Positions 3,705-12,844 of a stretch of DNA of 64,000 nucleotides are shown in pieces; positions within the stretch are counted from its first letter, which is position 1; every line of letters starts with the position of its first letter. Source of the DNA: Actinocorallia herbida (GTDB lineage Bacteria; Actinomycetota; Actinomycetes; Streptosporangiales; Streptosporangiaceae). The notes beneath the pieces were generated by a model, which saw only the letters and a program-made list of their open reading frames with translations, was not told where the DNA came from and searched no databases. Made by a program: the position numbers and the translations under genes. The DNA is taken from NCBI RefSeq assembly GCF_003751225.1, contig NZ_RJKE01000001.1, forward strand, positions 4,278,001 to 4,342,000. Reading direction: 5' to 3'.

Positions 3705-4193
3705 GTGGGCGCCGCCCGGCCCCGGCGGGGCCTCCTGCTCGCCGAGCCCGCCGGCCTGTCCGGCGCGCTCATCGGGTACGCGCGGGTCTCCACCAAGGAC
3801 CAGCGCCTGGACCGGCAGCTCATCGCGCTGAACGCCGTCGGCTGCCAGCGGATCTTCGCCGACAAGAAGTCCGGCAAGAACGCCGAGCGCGAGGAACTCT
3901 GGAAGGCCTTGGACTACATGCGGCCCGGCGACACCCTCGTCGTCCCCTCCCTGGACCGGCTCGCCCGCTCCCTCCAGGACCTCATCGCCCTCGTCTCCGG
4001 CCTGCGCGGACGCGGAATCGGCTTCCGCTCGCTGAAGGAAGCCCTCGACACCACCACGCCCGGAGAGCGCCTGGTCTTCCACGTCTTCGCCGCCCCGGCC
4101 GAGTTCATCCGCGAGCTCATCATCGAGGGCACCAACGAGGGCCTGGCCGCCGCCCGCGCCCGCGGCGTGAAACTCGGCGGCCTCCCGCGATGA
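3705..4193 (+). CDS. Serine recombinase (Tn3-type resolvase), catalytic part
   Basis: The 162-residue frame opens into the resolvase core at about residue 22: LIGYARVSTKDQ carries the catalytic serine (residue 29), and VVPSLDRLARSLQDL is the conserved active-site arginine segment. The E-helix region follows (RELIIEGTNEGLAAARARG). The first 20 residues are unlike the family, so the true start was probably lost or lies near 3765. The frame ends where the family has its C-terminal helix-turn-helix, and that domain is encoded in the next, overlapping frame at 4190. Its normal job is to resolve transposon cointegrates or invert DNA. It is either inactive through a frameshift or works as two chains. 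Confidence 0.75.
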   Translation: MGAARPRRGLLLAEPAGLSGALIGYARVSTKDQRLDRQLIALNAVGCQRIFADKKSGKNAEREELWKALDYMRPGDTLVVPSLDRLARSLQDLIALVSGLRGRGIGFRSLKEALDTTTPGERLVFHVFAAPAEFIRELIIEGTNEGLAAARARGVKLGGLPR

Positions 4194-4586: not shown

Positions 4587-6146
4587 TCAGGGGGTGAGGT
4601 TGTCCAGGGCGTGGCGGGCGGCCTGGAGGGCGGTGTCACGGATGCTCTCGGCGAGGGTGGAGGGGCCGGAGCGGGTGAGCTGGAGGAGGAGCGGGCCGGA
4701 GCGGGCGTGGACGGTGGTGGTGGCGGTGTCGCCGAAGGAGCCGGTGGAGGTCTCGGACTGGGCGAAGGCCTCGTCACCGACGCCGGGGAGGTCCTGCGGC
4801 CGAGTGGTGACGACCTTGATGGCGGGCTCGGAGGAGGTGCCCGCCTCGCCCGCGGCCTGGCGCTTGCGGAGGGCGTAGGTGTCCTTCGCGACCTGTTCCG
4901 CGGACTTGCCGTTCTGCTCGGGCAGCACCCGGAACGTGATCTCCAGCTTGTCGTCGGCGTCGCCCCACGTGCAGGTGGTGGCGTTGGCCGCCGTGCCTTC
5001 GGGGTCGCCGATGAGGGTGCGGGCCTGGTCCTCGGTGAGCAGGGCGCACGGTTCGGGGGCCGCGTCCGGGTCGGCGGGCGCCGGGGTGCCGCCCGCGGCG
5101 GGCGGGGCCGAAGACGGGCCTCCGCCGGTCGGCGGCCGGTCTCCGTCGCCGCCTCGCAGGACGAAGAACGCTCCGGCGGCGACGGCGACCATGACGACGG
5201 CGGCGACCCCTGCGCCCACCGCCAGCAGCGCGCCCGCCCCGGAGCGGCCCGCAGACGGCCCGGCCATGGGGACGGTGGGCGGGAACCCCGGGGGCGCGGC
5301 CTGCGGCGGGGAGAACGCCATCGGGGCCGGGACGACGCCCGCCGCGCCTTCGAGGGTCCGGCGGATCTCGGCGGGGGCGGGCCGCCGGTGCGGGTCGCGG
5401 TGCAGCATCGCCAGCAGCAGCGGCCCGAGCGGCCCGGCGAGCCGAGGCGTCTCGGCGTCCTCGGTGAGGACGGCGCCGATCATCGCGAGGGCGTTGGGCC
5501 GCTCGTACGGGCGACGGCCTTCGACCGCCGTGTAGAGGGTCGCGCCGAGCGACCACAGGTCGGACGCGAGCCCGTTGACGGGTCCGTCCCCGAGTCGTTC
5601 GGGCGCCATGTAGCCGGGCGAGCCGACGATGCCCTGTTCGGCCGCCGCGCCCGGATCGCCGGCGACGGTGGCGATGCCGAAGTCGGTGAGGATGGCCCGG
5701 TCGCCCGACAGGAGCACGTTCGCGGGTTTGACGTCGCGGTGGGCGATGCCACGCGAGTGGGCCAGGAGGAGCGCGTCCAGGAGCTGCAGCCCGATCTCGG
5801 CGACGCGGCGCGGCGGCAGCGGCCCCTGCCGGGTCCTGACCGCCTCCAGGGACGGCCCGTCGATGAGGTCCATGACGATCCACGGGCGGCCGTCCTGCCG
5901 CAGCACGTCGTGCACGGTGATGATGGACGGGTGGGGCAGCGCGGCCGCGGCGCGGGCCTCGCTGAGGAGGCGTTCGCAGAACTCGGCGTGCTTGGCGGCG
6001 TCCAGGCCCTCGGGCGGCCTGACCTCCTTGACGGCGACGACCCGGCCGAGGAACTCGTCGCGGGCCCGCCACACGTCGCCCATGCCGCCGCTGCCGAGTT
6101 TGCTCTCCAGCCGGTAGCGTCCGGCGATCGGGGGGCGGTCATGCAC
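4587..6146 (-). CDS. Membrane Ser/Thr protein kinase, active type (kinase 4 of locus)
   Basis: The 519-residue protein is a PknB-like kinase. The catalytic domain (about 9-265) keeps the glycine loop GSGGMGDV, lysine 40 (VAVKEV), H-R-D at 136-138 with KPAN, and D-F-G at 155-157. A proline-rich linker precedes one membrane segment (about 304-331), and about 190 residues lie outside the cell, beginning PCALLTEDQ (cysteine 367) with a second cysteine in the TCTWGD region, resembling DUF3558-like lipoprotein domains. It is the last gene of a four-gene leftward operon and overlaps the preceding pseudokinase by 8 bp. It should autophosphorylate and signal in response to something at the cell surface; the signal is unknown. 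Confidence 0.9.
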   Translation of the reverse strand: MHDRPPIAGRYRLESKLGSGGMGDVWRARDEFLGRVVAVKEVRPPEGLDAAKHAEFCERLLSEARAAAALPHPSIITVHDVLRQDGRPWIVMDLIDGPSLEAVRTRQGPLPPRRVAEIGLQLLDALLLAHSRGIAHRDVKPANVLLSGDRAILTDFGIATVAGDPGAAAEQGIVGSPGYMAPERLGDGPVNGLASDLWSLGATLYTAVEGRRPYERPNALAMIGAVLTEDAETPRLAGPLGPLLLAMLHRDPHRRPAPAEIRRTLEGAAGVVPAPMAFSPPQAAPPGFPPTVPMAGPSAGRSGAGALLAVGAGVAAVVMVAVAAGAFFVLRGGDGDRPPTGGGPSSAPPAAGGTPAPADPDAAPEPCALLTEDQARTLIGDPEGTAANATTCTWGDADDKLEITFRVLPEQNGKSAEQVAKDTYALRKRQAAGEAGTSSEPAIKVVTTRPQDLPGVGDEAFAQSETSTGSFGDTATTTVHARSGPLLLQLTRSGPSTLAESIRDTALQAARHALDNLTP

Positions 6147-7422
6147 GTCTGAGCTCCTCGGCGATCCAGTAGGCGCCGCGGATGGCGGCTTGGCGCAGGG
6201 CGGCGCTGGCGGGGCCGGAGCGGGTGAACTCCACGGTGACGACCGCGTTGGCCTGCCGGAACACGACCTCGGTCATGAAGCGGTCCCCCGAGCCCGACAG
6301 GTTCATCAGGGTCTCCTTGACGAAGCCGTCGTCGCCGGGGCCGCCGAGTTCGATGACCTCCCCGCCGCCGTAGGAGGCCATCCGGCGTTCGCTCTTCAGG
6401 CTGTCGCCCGGGTTGTTGACGAGCGCGACCTTCACGTCGAGGGAGAGGCTGAGCGTGCCGGGCAGGTCGCCGAGCCCGGTGGCGGTCCGCCAGTTGCAGG
6501 TGCCCGCCATGTAGTTCATGGGCTCGTCGGTGCCGGGGACGAGCTGCGCGATCTGCTCGTCGGTGAGCAGCTTGCAGGCGTCGGGGACCGCGGTGAGTCT
6601 CGGCGACGTCGTCGTGCTCTTGGCCACCGGGTCCGGGGAGGCGAACGCGACGGTGACGGGCACGGTCACCGCGAGGAGCGCGAGCGCGGCCGCGCCCAGC
6701 AGCGCCGGGTGGATCCGCAGGGGGCCGCGGTCCCGGGCCGAGGGCACCAGCCGGCGCAGCCCCGCGGCCAGCGCGGGTGCGGTGGCGCGCCCCGCCGGGT
6801 CGGGGTGCAGGGCGGGCTGGACCGCCGCGGCGAGGCGGGGCGCGCGCACTGCGGGGAGCGGCTGGCCGTAGCGCAGCGCGTCGGGGCCCGCGAACGGCGG
6901 ACGGCCCTCGGCCGCCGCGCACAGCGTCGCGGCGAGCCCCCACAGGTCCGAGGCGGGCGTCCGGTCGGGTTCCGGCGGGGTGAAGGCGGGCGACGGGCGG
7001 GCGGTGCCGAATCCGGTGAGCGCGAACCTGCCGTCGGCGCACCGCACGACGGTGCCGGGCTCGACGCCGCCGTGCACGATGCCGAGCGCGTGCGCGTGGG
7101 CGAGCGCGTCGAGCAGGTCGAGGCCGAGCGCCGCGGCGACGGGCTGCGGCAGGAGGCCCGCGGTGTACAGGGTGGTCCCGTCGGCGGGTTCGGTGACGGC
7201 CCAGGCGGCACCCTCGTCGTCGGTGACGACGTCGTGCACGGTGACGACGCCGCGGTGCTTGAGCGCGGTCGCGGCGCGGGCGGCGGCCAGCGTGTCGGCG
7301 GGGACGCGCCGGACGGTGACGTCGCGGTGCAGGAGCTCGTCGGCGGCGTGCCAGGCGCTGCCCTCGGCATCGAGGGGGCGCAGCGGCCGGTAGCGTCCGG
7401 CCAGGGGGGCGTGGGGCGTCAT
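6139..7422 (-). CDS. Membrane pseudokinase (gene 3 of kinase locus)
   Basis: The 427-residue protein has the kinase/membrane/outer-domain layout of its neighbours, but the catalytic residues are gone. The VAVK lysine is arginine 38 (VTVRRV), the H-R-D motif is H-G-G (117-119, followed by EPGTV in place of KPxN) and D-F-G is G-F-G (137-139). The N-terminal glycine loop is also lost (PLDAEGSAWHA). The lobe is otherwise recognisable (SDLWGLAATL, EGRPPFAG). One membrane span at about 239-260 leads to an outer domain beginning CKLLTDEQ. It overlaps the upstream gene by 4 bp and the downstream kinase by 8 bp. Phosphotransfer is very unlikely; a scaffold or allosteric role is inferred. Confidence 0.88.
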   Translation of the reverse strand: MTPHAPLAGRYRPLRPLDAEGSAWHAADELLHRDVTVRRVPADTLAAARAATALKHRGVVTVHDVVTDDEGAAWAVTEPADGTTLYTAGLLPQPVAAALGLDLLDALAHAHALGIVHGGVEPGTVVRCADGRFALTGFGTARPSPAFTPPEPDRTPASDLWGLAATLCAAAEGRPPFAGPDALRYGQPLPAVRAPRLAAAVQPALHPDPAGRATAPALAAGLRRLVPSARDRGPLRIHPALLGAAALALLAVTVPVTVAFASPDPVAKSTTTSPRLTAVPDACKLLTDEQIAQLVPGTDEPMNYMAGTCNWRTATGLGDLPGTLSLSLDVKVALVNNPGDSLKSERRMASYGGGEVIELGGPGDDGFVKETLMNLSGSGDRFMTEVVFRQANAVVTVEFTRSGPASAALRQAAIRGAYWIAEELRRA

Positions 7423-8876
7423 CCGCTCTTCTCCAGTGCTGCCGCGACCCAGCCCGCGGCCTTCTCGGCGCAGGCCGCGAGGTCGGTGGTGAGCTGCTGC
7501 TGCGGCCCGGTCTCGGCGTTCTGTTCGCAGGTCACCCGCGCGGCGATGTTGCTCACGACGAACACGAGCCGGGTGGACTGGTCCTTGAGGCTCTCCCGGT
7601 ACACGTCGTAGGCGATCGCCTGGTCGCCGATGCCGGTCAGCTCGCGCACCGGGGACACGGTGCCGCTGCTCAGCGCTTCACTCGGCGCGTCCGCGCGCTC
7701 TCCGGTGATGAATTCGCGGGCGGTGGCGGGGCCGCCGCCGAGCGGTCCGGGCCGCAGCACGTACAACTCGGTCGTCACTCCGAGGTCCTTGTCGAAGTCG
7801 CCGTCGGAGAGCCGGCAGTAGGTGCCCGCCTCGCGGTCGCTGCCTCCGCCGGTCTCGCTGCGGGAGAACTCCGGCACGAGTTCCTCGGACTGCTCGTCGG
7901 TCAGGAGGCCGCAGGCGCGGGGCGCGGCGGCGTACCGGCCGGGGTCGGCGTCGGCGGCGTCGGGTGACGGCGCGACGGCGGGGGCGGGCGGGGAGGTGAG
8001 CAGGGCGGTGGCGATCGTGGTGGCCGCCGCGACCGAGACGACCAGGCAGGCGGCGGCCGCCGCCAGGATCGGGGGGCGGACGGGCACGCGCGGCCCGCGC
8101 GGGGCGGGCGTGGCGAGCCGGTCCAGGGTCGCGGACACCTCGGGCGGGCGCTTGGCGGGGTCCTTGGCCAGGAGGTCGAGCAGGACGGGCGCGAGGTCTC
8201 CGGCCCGTTCGGGCGGGCGGGGTTCGGCGGCCAGGACGGCGCTGAGCACCGACATGGGGTCGTCGCCGGGGAAGGCGGAGGTCCCTTCGACGGCGAGGTA
8301 GACGGTCGCGCCGAGTGACCACAGGTCGGCGGCGGGGGCGGGCTTGGCCGTCTGCTCGGGGGCGGTGTAGCCGGGGGTGCCGACGAGGGAGGCGTCGTGG
8401 GCGCGGGTGGTGGCGCCGCAGCCGAAGCCGGTGAGGACGCCTCGCCCGTCGGCGGTCACCCACACGTGGTCGGGCTGGACGTCGCCGTGCACGATCCCGA
8501 CGAGGTGGGCGCGGTCCAGGGCCCCGGCGAGGTCGGCGGCGATGCGGGCGGCGGCCTGCGGCGGGAGCGGCCCGGTCTGGGCGAGCAGGTCGCTCAGGGG
8601 GCGTCCGGCGATGGTCGGGCCGATGATCCACGGGTCGCCGTCGTGCACGACGGCGTCCAGGACGGGGTGGGCGGCCGGGTGCCGGACGCGGGCCGCGGCG
8701 GCGGCGTCGCGCAGGACGTCCTGGGCGAGGGTCTCGCGCAGCCGTTCGCTCAGTTCCGGTGGGAGCGGCACGTGCCGGGCGAACACCGCGGCGCCCGTGC
8801 TCTCGTCGTAGGCGAGGTGCAGGCGCGGTCCGAGCGGCTGCTGGAGGACGTACCGTCCGCCGATCCTGGTGTGCAC
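7419..8876 (-). CDS. Membrane pseudokinase (gene 2 of kinase locus)
   Basis: The 485-residue protein has a kinase-like domain (1-260), a membrane span (about 269-293) and an outer domain beginning CGLLTDEQ. The lysine of VAVK is arginine 34 (VFARHV). H-R-D is H-G-D (130-132) with QPDH instead of KPxN, and D-F-G is G-F-G (150-152), removing the metal-binding aspartate. The activation-segment end VGTPGYTAPEQ and ADLWSLGATVY are kept, so the fold is maintained. GTG start at 8876, 3 bp after the stop of the upstream kinase and in tight operon spacing. Catalytically dead by family rules; role as partner of the two active kinases is inferred. Confidence 0.88.
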   Translation of the reverse strand: MHTRIGGRYVLQQPLGPRLHLAYDESTGAAVFARHVPLPPELSERLRETLAQDVLRDAAAAARVRHPAAHPVLDAVVHDGDPWIIGPTIAGRPLSDLLAQTGPLPPQAAARIAADLAGALDRAHLVGIVHGDVQPDHVWVTADGRGVLTGFGCGATTRAHDASLVGTPGYTAPEQTAKPAPAADLWSLGATVYLAVEGTSAFPGDDPMSVLSAVLAAEPRPPERAGDLAPVLLDLLAKDPAKRPPEVSATLDRLATPAPRGPRVPVRPPILAAAAACLVVSVAAATTIATALLTSPPAPAVAPSPDAADADPGRYAAAPRACGLLTDEQSEELVPEFSRSETGGGSDREAGTYCRLSDGDFDKDLGVTTELYVLRPGPLGGGPATAREFITGERADAPSEALSSGTVSPVRELTGIGDQAIAYDVYRESLKDQSTRLVFVVSNIAARVTCEQNAETGPQQQLTTDLAACAEKAAGWVAAALEKSG

Positions 8877-8879
8877 GCC

Positions 8880-10523
8880 TCAGCCCCTGTCGAGCGCCGC
8901 GACGACCCAGCGGGCCGTCGTCAGCGCGTTCTCGCGGATCTTCGCGGGTTTGGTCTTGTTCGTGACGTCGGCGTAGGTGACCTCGAAGATGAGGTTGCTG
9001 ACGCGGAAAACCACGTCGGTCATCTGCGCGCCGAGCCGTCCGTAGGTGTCGGTGGTGTGCGCCTCGTCGCCGAGGTCGTCGATCTTCTTGGCCTTGGTGC
9101 CGGGCCCGGAGGTGATGGACTCCCCGCCGATGCCGTCGTAATGCCAGATGATCTTGTCCGAGCCGTCGGCGGCGCGCAGGGAGCCGAGGTAGGCGTCGTG
9201 GGCCTGCGCGGGGGTCCGGCCCGTCCACGGGTCGGGGTTGTCGTAGTCCTTCTTGACCTCGACGCTGACACCGGCGCCCGGCGCGTCCCAGGAGCAGGCC
9301 GGGGCGTCGGTGTCGCCGGACGCGACGCCTTCGGCCTTCTTGTAGCGCGGGACGACCTTCCGTATCTGTTCCGCGGTGATCAGCCCGCACAGGTCGATCG
9401 GCACGGTGAACCGGGCGGCCTCCTCCGTCGGGGTCACCGCGGGGGCGGGCGGGGAGGTGACGGTCGCCGTGGGGGCGGCGGTCACGGCGGCGGCGGGCTC
9501 CCGGTCGTCGGTCGCGACGACCACGAGGGCGGCGGCGACCAGCGCGGCGGTCGCCACGACGCCGCCGGCCAGCAGCACCTGGCCCGCCCGGGAGCGGCGG
9601 GGCAGCGCGCCGGGGAGGGTGGGCGGCGGCCCCGCGGGTGCGGCGGGCGCGGCCGGGGCCGGCAGGTCGGGCAGCGCGATGTCGCCGGACGGCTGCCCCG
9701 TCGCGACCCGTTCCAGGACGGCCCGTACCACCTCGGCGGTGGGCCGGGCGCGGGGGTCGCGGCCGAGCAGCCGCAGCAGGACGGGCCCCAGCTCCCCAGC
9801 GCGCGTCGGCGGGACGGGGTCGGCGGTGAGCACCGCGGCCAGGACGGCCATGTGACCGGCGCCGGGGAACGGGTGGTGGCCCTCGACGGCGCGGTAGAGC
9901 GTCGCGGCCAGCGACCACAGGTCCGAGGACGGCCCGGGGCGCTCCCCGCGCAGCCGTTCGGGGGCGATGTGGCCGGGTGAGCCGACGAGCATCCCGGACC
10001 GGGTGATGGTGGCCTGGCCTTCGACGGTGGCGATGCCGAAGTCGGTGACGACGGCGCGCCCGTCGGAGGTGAGGAAGATGTTGCCGGGCTTGATGTCGCG
10101 GTGCAGGATGCCGACGGCGTGCGCGGCCTCCAGCGCGCCCAGGACGTCGAGGCCGACGCGGGCGGCGTGCTCGGGGGTGAGGGCGCCGCGGTCGGCGAGC
10201 ACCCGGTCGAGGGTGGCGCCGTCCAGGAGCTGCATGATGATCCACGGTCGGCCGTCGTCGAGGAACGCGTCGTGCACGACCACGACCCCGGGGTGGCGGA
10301 GCCGCGCCGTGGCCTGCGCCTCCCGGACGGCCCGCTCGGCGGCCTCGGCCCGCACGGTCGCGTCGAGGTCGGGCGCGATCTTCAGTTCCTTGACGGCGAC
10401 GTCGCGGCCGAGGGTCTCGTCCGTGGCCCGCCACACCGTGCCCATGCCCCCGCTGCCGAGGACCTCGAGCAGGAGGTAACGGTCGGCCAGCCTTGTCCCG
10501 ATCTCTCCTGGCATGCGAGGCAT
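8880..10523 (-). CDS. Membrane Ser/Thr protein kinase, active type (kinase 1 of locus)
   Basis: The 547-residue protein has a complete PknB-like domain: glycine loop GSGGMGTV, lysine 45 (VAVKELK), H-R-D 141-143 with KPGN, D-F-G 161-163 and the activation-loop end VGSPGHIAPERL. An alanine/proline linker, one membrane span (about 315-338) and an outer region of about 200 residues follow (LCGLITAEQ near its start, a second cysteine at ACSWDAPG). It is the first gene of the operon; a second in-frame ATG three codons downstream is possible. Upstream (10524-10571) separates it from the STAND gene's terminator, so its promoter should lie there. Expected to be an active sensor kinase of unknown signal. 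Confidence 0.9.
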   Translation of the reverse strand: MPRMPGEIGTRLADRYLLLEVLGSGGMGTVWRATDETLGRDVAVKELKIAPDLDATVRAEAAERAVREAQATARLRHPGVVVVHDAFLDDGRPWIIMQLLDGATLDRVLADRGALTPEHAARVGLDVLGALEAAHAVGILHRDIKPGNIFLTSDGRAVVTDFGIATVEGQATITRSGMLVGSPGHIAPERLRGERPGPSSDLWSLAATLYRAVEGHHPFPGAGHMAVLAAVLTADPVPPTRAGELGPVLLRLLGRDPRARPTAEVVRAVLERVATGQPSGDIALPDLPAPAAPAAPAGPPPTLPGALPRRSRAGQVLLAGGVVATAALVAAALVVVATDDREPAAAVTAAPTATVTSPPAPAVTPTEEAARFTVPIDLCGLITAEQIRKVVPRYKKAEGVASGDTDAPACSWDAPGAGVSVEVKKDYDNPDPWTGRTPAQAHDAYLGSLRAADGSDKIIWHYDGIGGESITSGPGTKAKKIDDLGDEAHTTDTYGRLGAQMTDVVFRVSNLIFEVTYADVTNKTKPAKIRENALTTARWVVAALDRG

Positions 10524-10639: not shown

Positions 10640-12703
10640 TCAGACCGTGGGCAGGGCGGGCGTCAGGGGGGTGTCCAGGCCGGACAGGAACGCCTTCTCG
10701 TAGTCGGCGTCGCCGATGGCGGCGCGGATCTGCTGTTCGCAGGCCTGGCGGGCGGCGGCGAGTTCGGGCGAGCCGAACTGGGCGGTGCCGAAGGTGGCGC
10801 GCCAGGCCTGCTCGCCGGTGCCCAGGACCGTCGCGGCCTGCTCGCTCTCGCCCAGCCCCGCGAGCGCGAGGGCGAGGGAGTCCAGGACCAGGGCCATGCC
10901 CCAGTAGTCGCCGAGCCGCCGGTTGGCCTCCAGCGCCTGGCGGGCGTGGTCGACCGCGGTCGGCAGGTCGCCGGTGCCGAGCGCGGCCAGCGCCCAGATG
11001 TAGTCGCCCCAGGACCGGTACTTGAACTCGCCGCGCCGCTCCCCTTCGGCCCGGATCCAGCGGGCGAGCGCGACCGCCTCCGCGTAGTCGCCGCGGACGA
11101 TGTGGATGTAGGACACGCACGCCTGGACCATCAGCGCGGTCGCCTCCCGCATCCCCTCGGCCTCGTGCGCTCCGCCGGCCTCGGGCAGCGTGTCGAACGG
11201 CGCGACGATCCGCATCGCCAGGTCGGCGTCGCCGCGGATGGACCACGCGGTGCCGCGCAGGTAGGCCGAGGCGCGCGCGGACACCCCGGTCGGCGGCTTG
11301 TCCTCGCCGACGGCGGCGGAGGTGCAGATCTCGACGGCGCCGTTGCACGCCTCGACGTCGCCCTGGGCCAGGACGACGAGCCCGTAGGCCCAGGACGCGC
11401 GCATCCGGTGGTAGCCGGGGGTCGCGTCGTGGGCGAGCGCGCGCTCGAAGTAGTGCCGGCCTTCGCGCTGGTGGCCGCAGCAGTACCAGAAGAACCACAG
11501 CGCGCCGAGCAGTTCCAGGACCGCGTCGCCGGGCTCGGTGAAGCAGGTCTCCAGCGCGACCTGGAGGTCGGCGAAGTCCTGGGCGAAGCGCTGCGCGAGG
11601 TCGGCCTGGCCGGCGGTGAACCACAGGCCGAACGCGTGCCGGGCGGCGGCGCGGTAGTGGTCGCGGTGGCCGAGCCGCAGGGCGCGGTCCTCGCCGAGTT
11701 CGCGCAGCCAGTGCGCGCCGAACTCGGCGATGGTGTCGAGCAGGGCGTACCTGCCGTCGCGGGTCTTGACCAGGGACTTGTCGACGAGCTGGGCGAGCGT
11801 GCCGCGCACGTCCTCGGGGGTCAGGGGGCCGCCCGAGCACACGTCCTGGGCGGTGGCGGAGGTGAAGGACCCGGCGAAGACCGACAGGCGCGCCCACAGC
11901 AGCCGTTCCTCCGGCGTGCACAGCTCGTGGCTCCAGCCGATGGCCGTCCACAGCGTCGCGTGGTGCGCCGGGGCGCCTCCGCCGCGCTTGCGCTCGGTCT
12001 CCAGGGCGAACCTGTCCTGGATGCGGGCGCCCAGGTCGGCGACGGGCAGTTCCGCGACGAGCGCGGCGGCGAGCTCGACCGCGAGCGGGATGCCGTCCAG
12101 GTGCGCGCAGACCCCGGCGACGATCGGGCGGGTGGCCTCGGTGAGCGCGAAGCCGGGGGCGACGGCGGCGGCGCGTTCGGCGAACAGCTGGACGGCCTCC
12201 CGGTCGGCGGCCAGGGGCGTGAGGTCGATGCGGGACTCGCCCCGGACGCCGAGCGGCTGCCGGCTCGTGGCGATGATCTTGACGCCGGGCGCGACGCCCA
12301 GCAGCAGCATGATCATCATGGCGCAGGACTCCAGCAGGTGCTCGCACCCGTCCAGGACGAGCAGGCACCGGGCCCCGGCGAGCCGGTCGGCGAGGACCTC
12401 GGCCATCGGCCGCGTGGTCTGGTCCTGCAGCCGCATCTCCCGGCAGATGAGGTGCGGCAGCAGGGTGCCGTCGCGCAGCTGCGACAGGCGCACCACCCAC
12501 ACCCCGTCGGGGAAGTCGGGCGCCGCCGTGACCGCGGCCTCCAGCGCCGTCCTGGTCTTGCCGACGCCGCCGACCCCGGTCAGCGTGACCAGCCGTTCGG
12601 TGCGCAGGACCCGTTCGATCGCGACGAGTTCGGCGTCCCTGCCCACGAAACTCGACAGATCGGTGGAGATGTTGCCGCGGCGCGGGTGCGTTTCCCTGGT
12701 CAT
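10640..12703 (-). CDS. STAND/NB-ARC-type ATPase with helical repeats
   Basis: The 687-residue protein has a signal-transduction ATPase core: FVGRDAEL, the P-loop GVGGVGKT (about residues 45-52), a Walker B stretch CLLVLDGCEHLLE and GIPLAVELAAALV of the winged-helix side. The C-terminal half is alpha-helical and TPR-like. Homologues often end in a LuxR helix-turn-helix or start with an AfsR/SARP domain; neither is seen here, so it may act through protein contacts. The ATG at 12703 is preceded by GGAG. It points toward the kinase operon, separated by a terminator, and is divergent from the PP2C-like gene. AfsR-like signalling downstream of Ser/Thr kinases is a reasonable guess only. Confidence 0.8.
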   Translation of the reverse strand: MTRETHPRRGNISTDLSSFVGRDAELVAIERVLRTERLVTLTGVGGVGKTRTALEAAVTAAPDFPDGVWVVRLSQLRDGTLLPHLICREMRLQDQTTRPMAEVLADRLAGARCLLVLDGCEHLLESCAMMIMLLLGVAPGVKIIATSRQPLGVRGESRIDLTPLAADREAVQLFAERAAAVAPGFALTEATRPIVAGVCAHLDGIPLAVELAAALVAELPVADLGARIQDRFALETERKRGGGAPAHHATLWTAIGWSHELCTPEERLLWARLSVFAGSFTSATAQDVCSGGPLTPEDVRGTLAQLVDKSLVKTRDGRYALLDTIAEFGAHWLRELGEDRALRLGHRDHYRAAARHAFGLWFTAGQADLAQRFAQDFADLQVALETCFTEPGDAVLELLGALWFFWYCCGHQREGRHYFERALAHDATPGYHRMRASWAYGLVVLAQGDVEACNGAVEICTSAAVGEDKPPTGVSARASAYLRGTAWSIRGDADLAMRIVAPFDTLPEAGGAHEAEGMREATALMVQACVSYIHIVRGDYAEAVALARWIRAEGERRGEFKYRSWGDYIWALAALGTGDLPTAVDHARQALEANRRLGDYWGMALVLDSLALALAGLGESEQAATVLGTGEQAWRATFGTAQFGSPELAAARQACEQQIRAAIGDADYEKAFLSGLDTPLTPALPTV

Positions 12704-12844
12704 GCGTTCTCCGCTCACTGGGGGGATGGTGACGTCGAGGAATTGCGACGATACTCCCCGCAATGCCGACTTGTTCGCTCTTTGAGTCCACCGCCTCACG
12801 GACCGCTAATATGAACACTCGGCTTGGTCACGAGAGGCTGGGCA

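Follow-up and report, generated by a model that had tools for sequence, protein, structure and literature searches.

A conserved four-gene actinobacterial operon with two live and two dead membrane kinases, which suggests pseudokinases serving as exchangeable receptor subunits

Bacterial pseudokinases are described as largely unexplored experimentally (PMC12599244). PknH is an active receptor Ser/Thr kinase with a membrane span and an external sensor domain (PDB 4ESQ) that contains two disulfides (PMC3601408), and the genes pknH1 and pknH2 show copy-number change and a linker deletion (PMC7785237). The PknB-type PASTA kinases consist of one active kinase with PASTA repeats and form back-to-back dimers. 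Among the pseudokinases, the ActPs3 group, exemplified by MviN, is actinobacterial, has lost the catalytic motifs, has a deletion in the activation loop and a C-terminal membrane span, and retains conserved Leu and Asp dimer contacts (PMC12599244), while the ActPs2 group is defined by a Lys to Arg substitution, a change of HRD to HRN and an activation-loop insertion of about 250 residues (PMC12599244). The cluster SCO4775-4779 in Streptomyces coelicolor also contains several consecutive Ser/Thr kinase genes, but these are five separately transcribed genes with gaps of 93-173 bp, and the word "pseudo" does not occur in the text that describes them (PMC4416010).

The operon is located on the minus strand of a 64,000-nucleotide stretch of DNA from Actinocorallia herbida (here called the window), where four consecutive genes each encode a kinase domain, a membrane span and an external domain. 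We refer to kinases with complete catalytic motifs as live and to those without as dead. The genes and domains are as follows, with positions counted from the start of the window.

8880..10523, minus strand: gene A (gene 1), live kinase, membrane span and external domain
9729..10523, minus strand: kinase domain of A, with VAVKE / HRDIKPGN / DFG intact
8883..9407, minus strand: external domain of A, DUF3558-like, with a predicted structure resembling the PknH sensor
7419..8876, minus strand: gene B (gene 2), dead kinase with a shortened glycine-loop region, membrane span and external domain
8082..8876, minus strand: pseudokinase domain of B (Lys to Arg, HGD, GFG), predicted to fold as a whole kinase
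7422..7946, minus strand: external domain of B
6139..7422, minus strand: gene D (gene 3), dead kinase, membrane span and external domain
6718..7422, minus strand: pseudokinase domain of D (Lys to Arg, HGG, GFG, short activation segment), which keeps the equivalents of PknB R10, L33 and D76
6142..6666, minus strand: external domain of D, the domain that is exchanged as a cassette in relatives, although this was not shown for this genus
4587..6146, minus strand: gene C (gene 4), live kinase, membrane span and external domain
5352..6146, minus strand: kinase domain of C, with VAVKE / HRDVKPAN / DFG intact
4590..5114, minus strand: external domain of C

The first-pass annotation had described these genes as two active kinases enclosing two pseudokinases, and this observation was confirmed. 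There is a gap of 3 bp between A and B, an overlap of 4 bp between B and D, and an overlap of 8 bp between D and C. In B, the motifs are replaced by VFARH / HGDVQPDH / GFG, and in D by VTVRR / HGGVEPGT / GFG, with no glycine loop in either protein. The Pfam kinase domain (PF00069) scores 144.7 bits in A, 62.7 bits in B and 147.9 bits in C, but only 21.7 bits in D, which is below the cut-off of 31.7 bits. The external domains of genes 1-4 begin with CGLITAEQ, CGLLTDEQ, CKLLTDEQ and CALLTEDQ, respectively. However, two details needed correction. The genus of the window is unusual in that the live genes enclose the dead ones, and the external domains, which had been placed on the outer-membrane side, are extracellular in such actinobacteria.

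To learn whether the operon is more than a local curiosity, we searched 297 genomes of the family, probably Streptosporangiaceae of GTDB, and found that 34 of them carry a B gene. Of these, 33 loci from 12 genera were counted, of which 29 have the order A-B-C-D, two, both from the genus of the window, have the order A-B-D-C, and two are shortened. The assignment of gene 3 as D and gene 4 as C is based on trees and profiles. A congener, G001, has the same four genes with open reading frames at 39-76% identity per kinase or external domain, and another 31 loci in 11 other genera have the same set or most of it. The junctions are usually overlapping, by 4 bp between A and B in 22 of 33 loci, by 8 bp between B and C in 25 of 30, and by 8 bp between C and D in nine of 29. 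The window and G001 share the operon but no flanking gene in the stretches compared with BLASTN and BLASTP, while 25 of the 33 loci share another site, with a response-regulator flank, so the four genes behave as a unit.

The first-pass annotation had named random losses in orthologous loci and decay in a single strain as outcomes that would speak against its reading, and neither was observed. The catalytic Lys, the catalytic Asp and the Asp of DFG are all kept in C in 32 of 32 loci and in A in 30 of 33, but in none of 33 B and none of 31 D proteins, so that the losses are specific to the paralog across genera. At seven catalytic sites, C is complete in 32 of 32, A in 28 of 33, B in none of 33 and D in none of 31. 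A thus departs at one or more sites in five loci, three of them at Lys, the catalytic Asp or the Asp of DFG. The dead domains are under purifying selection, with dN/dS values of 0.08-0.64 for B and 0.13-0.44 for D, based on six measurable pairs each.

The two dead kinases differ from each other. While D has lost the catalytic motifs, it keeps the equivalents of the PknB contact residues R10, L33 and D76 in 30 of 30, 29 of 30 and 30 of 30 proteins, although the Lys is kept in only one of 30. In four other loci (L112, L113, L116 and L117), one dead kinase also keeps this trio. However, the trio is also fixed in A and C, and other columns in the N-lobe are as conserved in D, so its retention may reflect fold stability. 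B, in contrast, has no aligned N-lobe in 27 of the 29 loci where a kinase match remains and no kinase match in four of 33, so B cannot work everywhere through such a contact. Over all loci, the remaining kinase part of B is no better conserved than its external domain, with a mean identity of 58.0% and 57.8%, respectively. D is absent from loci L101 and L102 and is a fragment of 111 residues in L093.

The external domain of D is exchanged as a cassette in several relatives. In one pair, the DNA identity is 0.85-0.97 through the kinase domain and membrane span of D, 0.47-0.56 over the external domain, and 0.90-0.93 after the stop codon. External-domain types have changed at least nine times on the tree of the D kinase. 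The DUF3558 profile (PF12079) scores 39.9 bits in gene A, with a cut-off of 34.1 bits, and is below the cut-off in the other three genes; for the external domains alone, matches at an E-value of 0.01 were obtained for nine of 13 members of A, nine of 10 of D and none of 10 of B. The external domains share a predicted sensor fold that resembles the PknH sensor, and the best PDB match of the AlphaFold model for the external domain of A (pLDDT 72.6) was 4ESQ, with a Foldseek E-value of 8.6e-5, a TM-score of 0.56 and 10% identity, whereas a profile search of PDB by sequence found nothing. Unlike PknH, the external domains usually have two cysteines, and the operon encodes four paralogs, of which two are dead.

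The PknB-type kinases are the closest solved relatives of the B model and the D profile. However, the four proteins score only 224.5, 97.2, 38.6 and 203.4 bits against the PASTA kinase family (NF033483), which has a cut-off of 450 bits, and the best of these matches covers the kinase part only. D shares with ActPs3 the actinobacterial origin, the conserved Leu and Asp dimer contacts, the loss of catalytic motifs, the C-terminal span and the activation-loop deletion, with a segment of median length seven residues compared to 38 in A and C, as measured in 23 of 31 D proteins. We considered classifying D as ActPs3, but it lacks the bulky residue four positions before the contact Asp that fills the ATP pocket (the W789 site in MviN), where none of the 31 D proteins has a Trp, but V, A, T, I, P or no residue. 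D also sits beside live paralogs and has an external sensor head, and the 60 best PDB matches of its profile are active kinases such as PknB, PknA and PAK, or the pseudokinase ULK4, with none named MviN. Neither protein fits ActPs2, since D has HGG/LAA-type loops and a deletion and B has HGD. In contrast to the kinase cluster of S. coelicolor, the genes here overlap and two of them are dead. Literature searches, including on DUF3558 together with kinases and on pseudokinases and Ser/Thr kinases in Streptomyces, found no description of this system.

The explanation that we consider most likely, although it is about as likely to be wrong as right, is that the operon encodes one hetero-oligomeric transmembrane receptor kinase built of four paralogous subunits. 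In this view, A and C are the catalysts, C being the invariant one, while D would be a dead allosteric subunit that has lost ATP and substrate handling but keeps the N-lobe face by which PknB-type kinases form back-to-back dimers, so that it could dock on and switch A or C while presenting an external sensor head that is exchanged between lineages. B would be a dead co-receptor kept mainly for its external domain and membrane span, with a C-lobe remnant in many lineages. A signal read by the external heads, above all that of D, would bring the N-lobe of D to a live kinase, which would autophosphorylate and signal. The gene content and order, catalytic status, constraint on the dead domains, retention of contact residues and cassette exchange are results of the analysis, whereas the assembly into a complex, the docking, the control of kinase activity and its direction, the ligand, the targets and the output are inferred. 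The proposal that dead subunits tune live ones, made in the first-pass annotation, is thus partly supported, with the contact residues in D as its one specific support. Against the hetero-oligomeric receptor stand the possible role of the contact residues in fold stability, the departures in A, the loci without an intact D, the weak conservation of the remaining kinase part of B relative to its external domain, and sister operons, called A2-C2, which do without B and D.

Alternatively, the dead kinase domains could be passengers, with B and D kept only for their external domains and membrane spans as co-receptors or ligand-binding proteins beside the A-C kinase pair. The loss of the N-lobe or of any kinase match in B is consistent with this, as are the operons L115, L118, L125 and L126 of another genus (g4), which have a fourth gene with no kinase match, and the kinase-less relatives that occur elsewhere in the class, in a genus that is probably Streptomyces. 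However, the dead domain of D evolves slower than its external domain in 434 of 435 pairs, and the remnant in B is also constrained and has a recurring HGDVRPGS motif. We consider this explanation unlikely overall; that the dead domains are mere relics is unlikely for D but possible for B. It is equally unlikely that B and D are substrates or scaffolds that are phosphorylated by A and C, as the MviN pseudokinase is by PknB (PMC12599244), and recruit downstream proteins without controlling kinase activity. B has proline-rich linkers of variable length, but the linkers are the least conserved parts in most comparisons. Least likely is that the four proteins are independent receptors that merely share an operon, B and D being decoys that titrate ligand. 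The external domains within the window operon are only 29-34% identical to that of A, which is compatible with different ligands, but the stable gene set across 12 genera, the overlapping junctions, the joint relocation and the constraint on the dead domains argue against it.

A more far-reaching and tentative possibility, less likely than not, is that the receptor combines a fixed intracellular engine, consisting of two live kinases and one dead N-lobe activator, with a variable recognition head carried by the dead subunit. The external domain of D would then be replaced by recombination as in recognition systems under diversifying selection, such as strain recognition or tracking of a changing ligand or antagonist, and a pseudokinase would be the exchangeable specificity subunit of a kinase receptor.

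A defense role was also considered, but the PADLOC matches shown are to kinase models such as PD-T4-6 and mad6, mostly over the kinase part, and say nothing specific. A search for related loci with a single protein (P0003) as query gave only one proteobacterial kinase locus. The genes in the operons of genera g4 and g57 are only weakly assigned to B, C or D by external-domain score, and their live second kinase may or may not resemble the ancestor of B.

In this operon, live and dead paralogs are inherited together, and one dead paralog keeps dimer contacts while losing catalysis. This makes it possible to address directly whether a pseudokinase can be a dedicated regulator of a bacterial receptor kinase, and why its sensor head is exchanged between lineages. 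Sister operons with only live kinases (A2-C2), or with other members dead, are natural controls. Of the 13 A2-C2 operons, 12 have a kinase-less third gene with a weak external-domain match.

Four minus-strand genes at 10523-4587 form a single overlapping unit. The genes, here called A, B, D and C, were numbered 1, 2, 3 and 4 in the first-pass annotation:

8880-10523, minus strand, gene A
7419-8876, minus strand, gene B
6139-7422, minus strand, gene D
4587-6146, minus strand, gene C

Each gene encodes a kinase domain, one hydrophobic span and an external domain of about 175 residues. While A and C have every catalytic residue that was scored, B and D do not. Since the genome, a single 9.8 Mb contig, contains 78 kinase matches, it is the arrangement rather than the kinase that is of interest.

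The operon is not a local accident. Of three genomes of the genus, G001 has the same operon, in which D is 50% identical, whereas G002 has no match to B. A profile based on ten B external domains identified 34 genomes with scores above 170 bits among 297 genomes of the family, the next best score being 104 bits, although all ten rows of the profile come from these 34 genomes. A sample of the order gave matches at the set cut-off in this family only. In a sample of 394 genomes from the class, no match outside the family exceeded 75 bits, but 12 genomes of one other genus, from another family, showed weak matches. In the 5 of 12 loci that were inspected (L130-L134), these nearest relatives of the external domain are kinase-less proteins with a lipoprotein-like start, two in a row. 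External domains of the A type were found in 16 of the 394 genomes, all in the family.

We collected the loci of all 34 genomes with a B gene. One of these, L072, is aberrant and was left out of the counts, and the remaining 33 loci represent 12 genera. A tree inferred from 67 external domains of the first loci contains clades A, B, C and D. In this tree, the D protein of the window falls beside, not in, the D clade with weak support. However, its best profile is D, although rows from the window were included in that profile, and its kinase domain groups with the D kinases and a few other dead ones (SH-aLRT 89, long branches). The gene order is A-B-C-D in 29 loci, A-B-D-C in two (the window and G001), A-B-C in one (L101) and A-B in one (L102). 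Sister operons were also identified. These include 13 A2-C2 pairs in which both kinases are live, 12 of which (L073, L075, L076, L079, L081-L084, L088, L114, L122 and L128) are followed by a kinase-less third gene with a weak external-domain match. They also include four-gene sets in the genera g4 and g57 in which other members are dead or kinase-less. In the sister four-gene operons L112, L113, L116 and L117, genes 3 and 4 are dead, while in L115, L118, L125 and L126, genes 1-3 are live and gene 4 has no kinase match.

The catalytic status was scored at seven sites: the Lys, the alpha-C Glu, the catalytic Asp, the HRDxK Lys, the Asn, the DFG Asp and the APE Glu. All seven are present in C in 32 of 32 loci. 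In A, all seven are present in 28 of 33 loci, and the Lys, Asp and DFG Asp in 30 of 33. The five departures in A are L085 and L090 (HRDxK Lys), L105 (DFG Asp), L109 (Lys to Arg) and L102 (three sites). The operon in L102, from genome G017, also lacks C and D and is thus reduced to A and a B gene, an apparent decay of a whole system. The seven sites are complete in B in 0 of 33 loci, with no kinase match at all in four of these (L074, L109, L110 and L111) and no aligned N-lobe in 27 of the other 29. In D, they are complete in 0 of 31 loci. One of these D proteins (L093) is a 111-residue fragment without a kinase match, while D in L070 keeps the Lys, the Asn and the DFG, but not the catalytic Asp.

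The selective constraint was estimated as dN/dS by domain (NG86) for 10 pairs, 7 of which come from the 33 loci. The ratio was 0.08-0.64 for the dead B domain (six measurable pairs), 0.13-0.44 for the dead D domain (six measurable pairs) and 0.04-0.53 for the live A and C domains. Between the window and G001, the identity of the kinase domains is 74% for A, 64% for B, 76% for C and 60% for D, and that of the external domains is 60, 45, 43 and 39%, respectively. The dead domains are thus held by selection. Over all pairs, the mean kinase and external-domain identities are 70.4 and 56.8% for A, 58.0 and 57.8% for B, 75.9 and 45.1% for C, and 59.2 and 34.3% for D. The dead domain of D is thus held better than its external part, while that of B is not.

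The D proteins lack the glycine loop, the lysine, the HRD and the DFG in nearly all loci, and also most of the activation segment, which has a median of 7 residues compared to 38 in A and C (23 of 31 D proteins measured). However, according to a mapping from the alignment, D keeps equivalents of PknB R10 in 30 of 30, L33 in 29 of 30 and D76 in 30 of 30. These three residues make the back-to-back contact of PknB. Support comes from PDB titles that name L33 and D76 mutants, and from the statement that L750 and D793 in MviN are analogous contact residues (PMC12599244). It should be noted that the trio is also fixed in A and C, and that other N-lobe columns of D are as conserved. Where B has an N-lobe, it contains a Thr at the site corresponding to L33 (2 of 2). 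In L112, L113, L116 and L117, one dead kinase keeps the trio and the other has lost L33, so two kinds of dead subunit recur.

The external domain of D has been exchanged between relatives. The identities of the kinase and external domains correlate at 0.49 in D, compared to 0.90, 0.86 and 0.87 in A, B and C. In L085 and L090, which belong to the same genus, the DNA identity is 0.85-0.97 through the kinase and span of D, 0.47-0.56 over the external domain and 0.90-0.93 after the stop codon, while the rest of the operon stays at 0.75-0.97, except for the linker of B at 0.64-0.81. In L080 and L098, the D kinases are 90-91% identical and the external domains 27-31%, while the external domains of A and B are 84-86% identical. 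In these two pairs, the external domain of the dead kinase is replaced as a cassette between close relatives, with borders at the membrane span and near the stop codon. However, not every pair shows a sharp downstream border, as L092 and L099, and L086 and L097, stay low beyond the gene. Leaving aside the window, L040 and L070, the D external domains form three groups of 18, 7 and 3 members, which require at least 9 changes on the D-kinase tree. A single clade on that tree is rejected for the second and for the third group (AU p 1.9e-11 and 3.3e-31), and also for the second group without L109 (4.0e-5). The groups were named from the external domains before the test on the kinases, but after clusters had been seen in the identity comparisons. 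A milder case is seen in the live kinase C of L091 and L100, where the kinase is 96% identical and the external domain 61%, while the external domain of D is 92% identical. The exchange is shown in other genera, not in that of the window.

The kinase part of B in the window is predicted to adopt a whole kinase fold (pLDDT 87.7, with the four paralogues of the window as alignment), nearest to PknB and PknA. The model of the A external domain is of moderate quality (72.6), and its best match in the PDB is the sensor of PknH, followed by PsbP and TiME structures. A cysteine pair, counted as exactly two cysteines, is present in A in 32 of 33, B in 29 of 33, C in 32 of 32 and D in 28 of 31 proteins, while three D proteins have none. 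Literature searches, which covered few subscription papers, listed no description of this arrangement, and the publications consulted were PMC12599244, PMC4416010, PMC6333020, PMC6428115, PMC3601408 and PMC7785237.

Of the 33 loci, 25 have a response regulator and a histidine kinase on the upstream side, and 25 have a SURF1-like gene downstream, as judged from our reading of the sequences. The operons in the window and in G001 are not located at that place. Between positions 1-25000 of the window and the 20 kb of G001, no flanking protein matches (51 against 45 ORFs), and the DNA matches lie only in the operon, so the four genes moved as a unit or the surroundings were rebuilt. Upstream of gene A in the window, on the same strand, there is a large ORF (10640-12799, minus strand) with a GVGGVGKT P-loop, which was read as a putative STAND-type ATPase, and just downstream of the operon, there is an ORF (3705-4193, plus strand) that by eye has a serine-recombinase-like start (GYARVSTKDQ).
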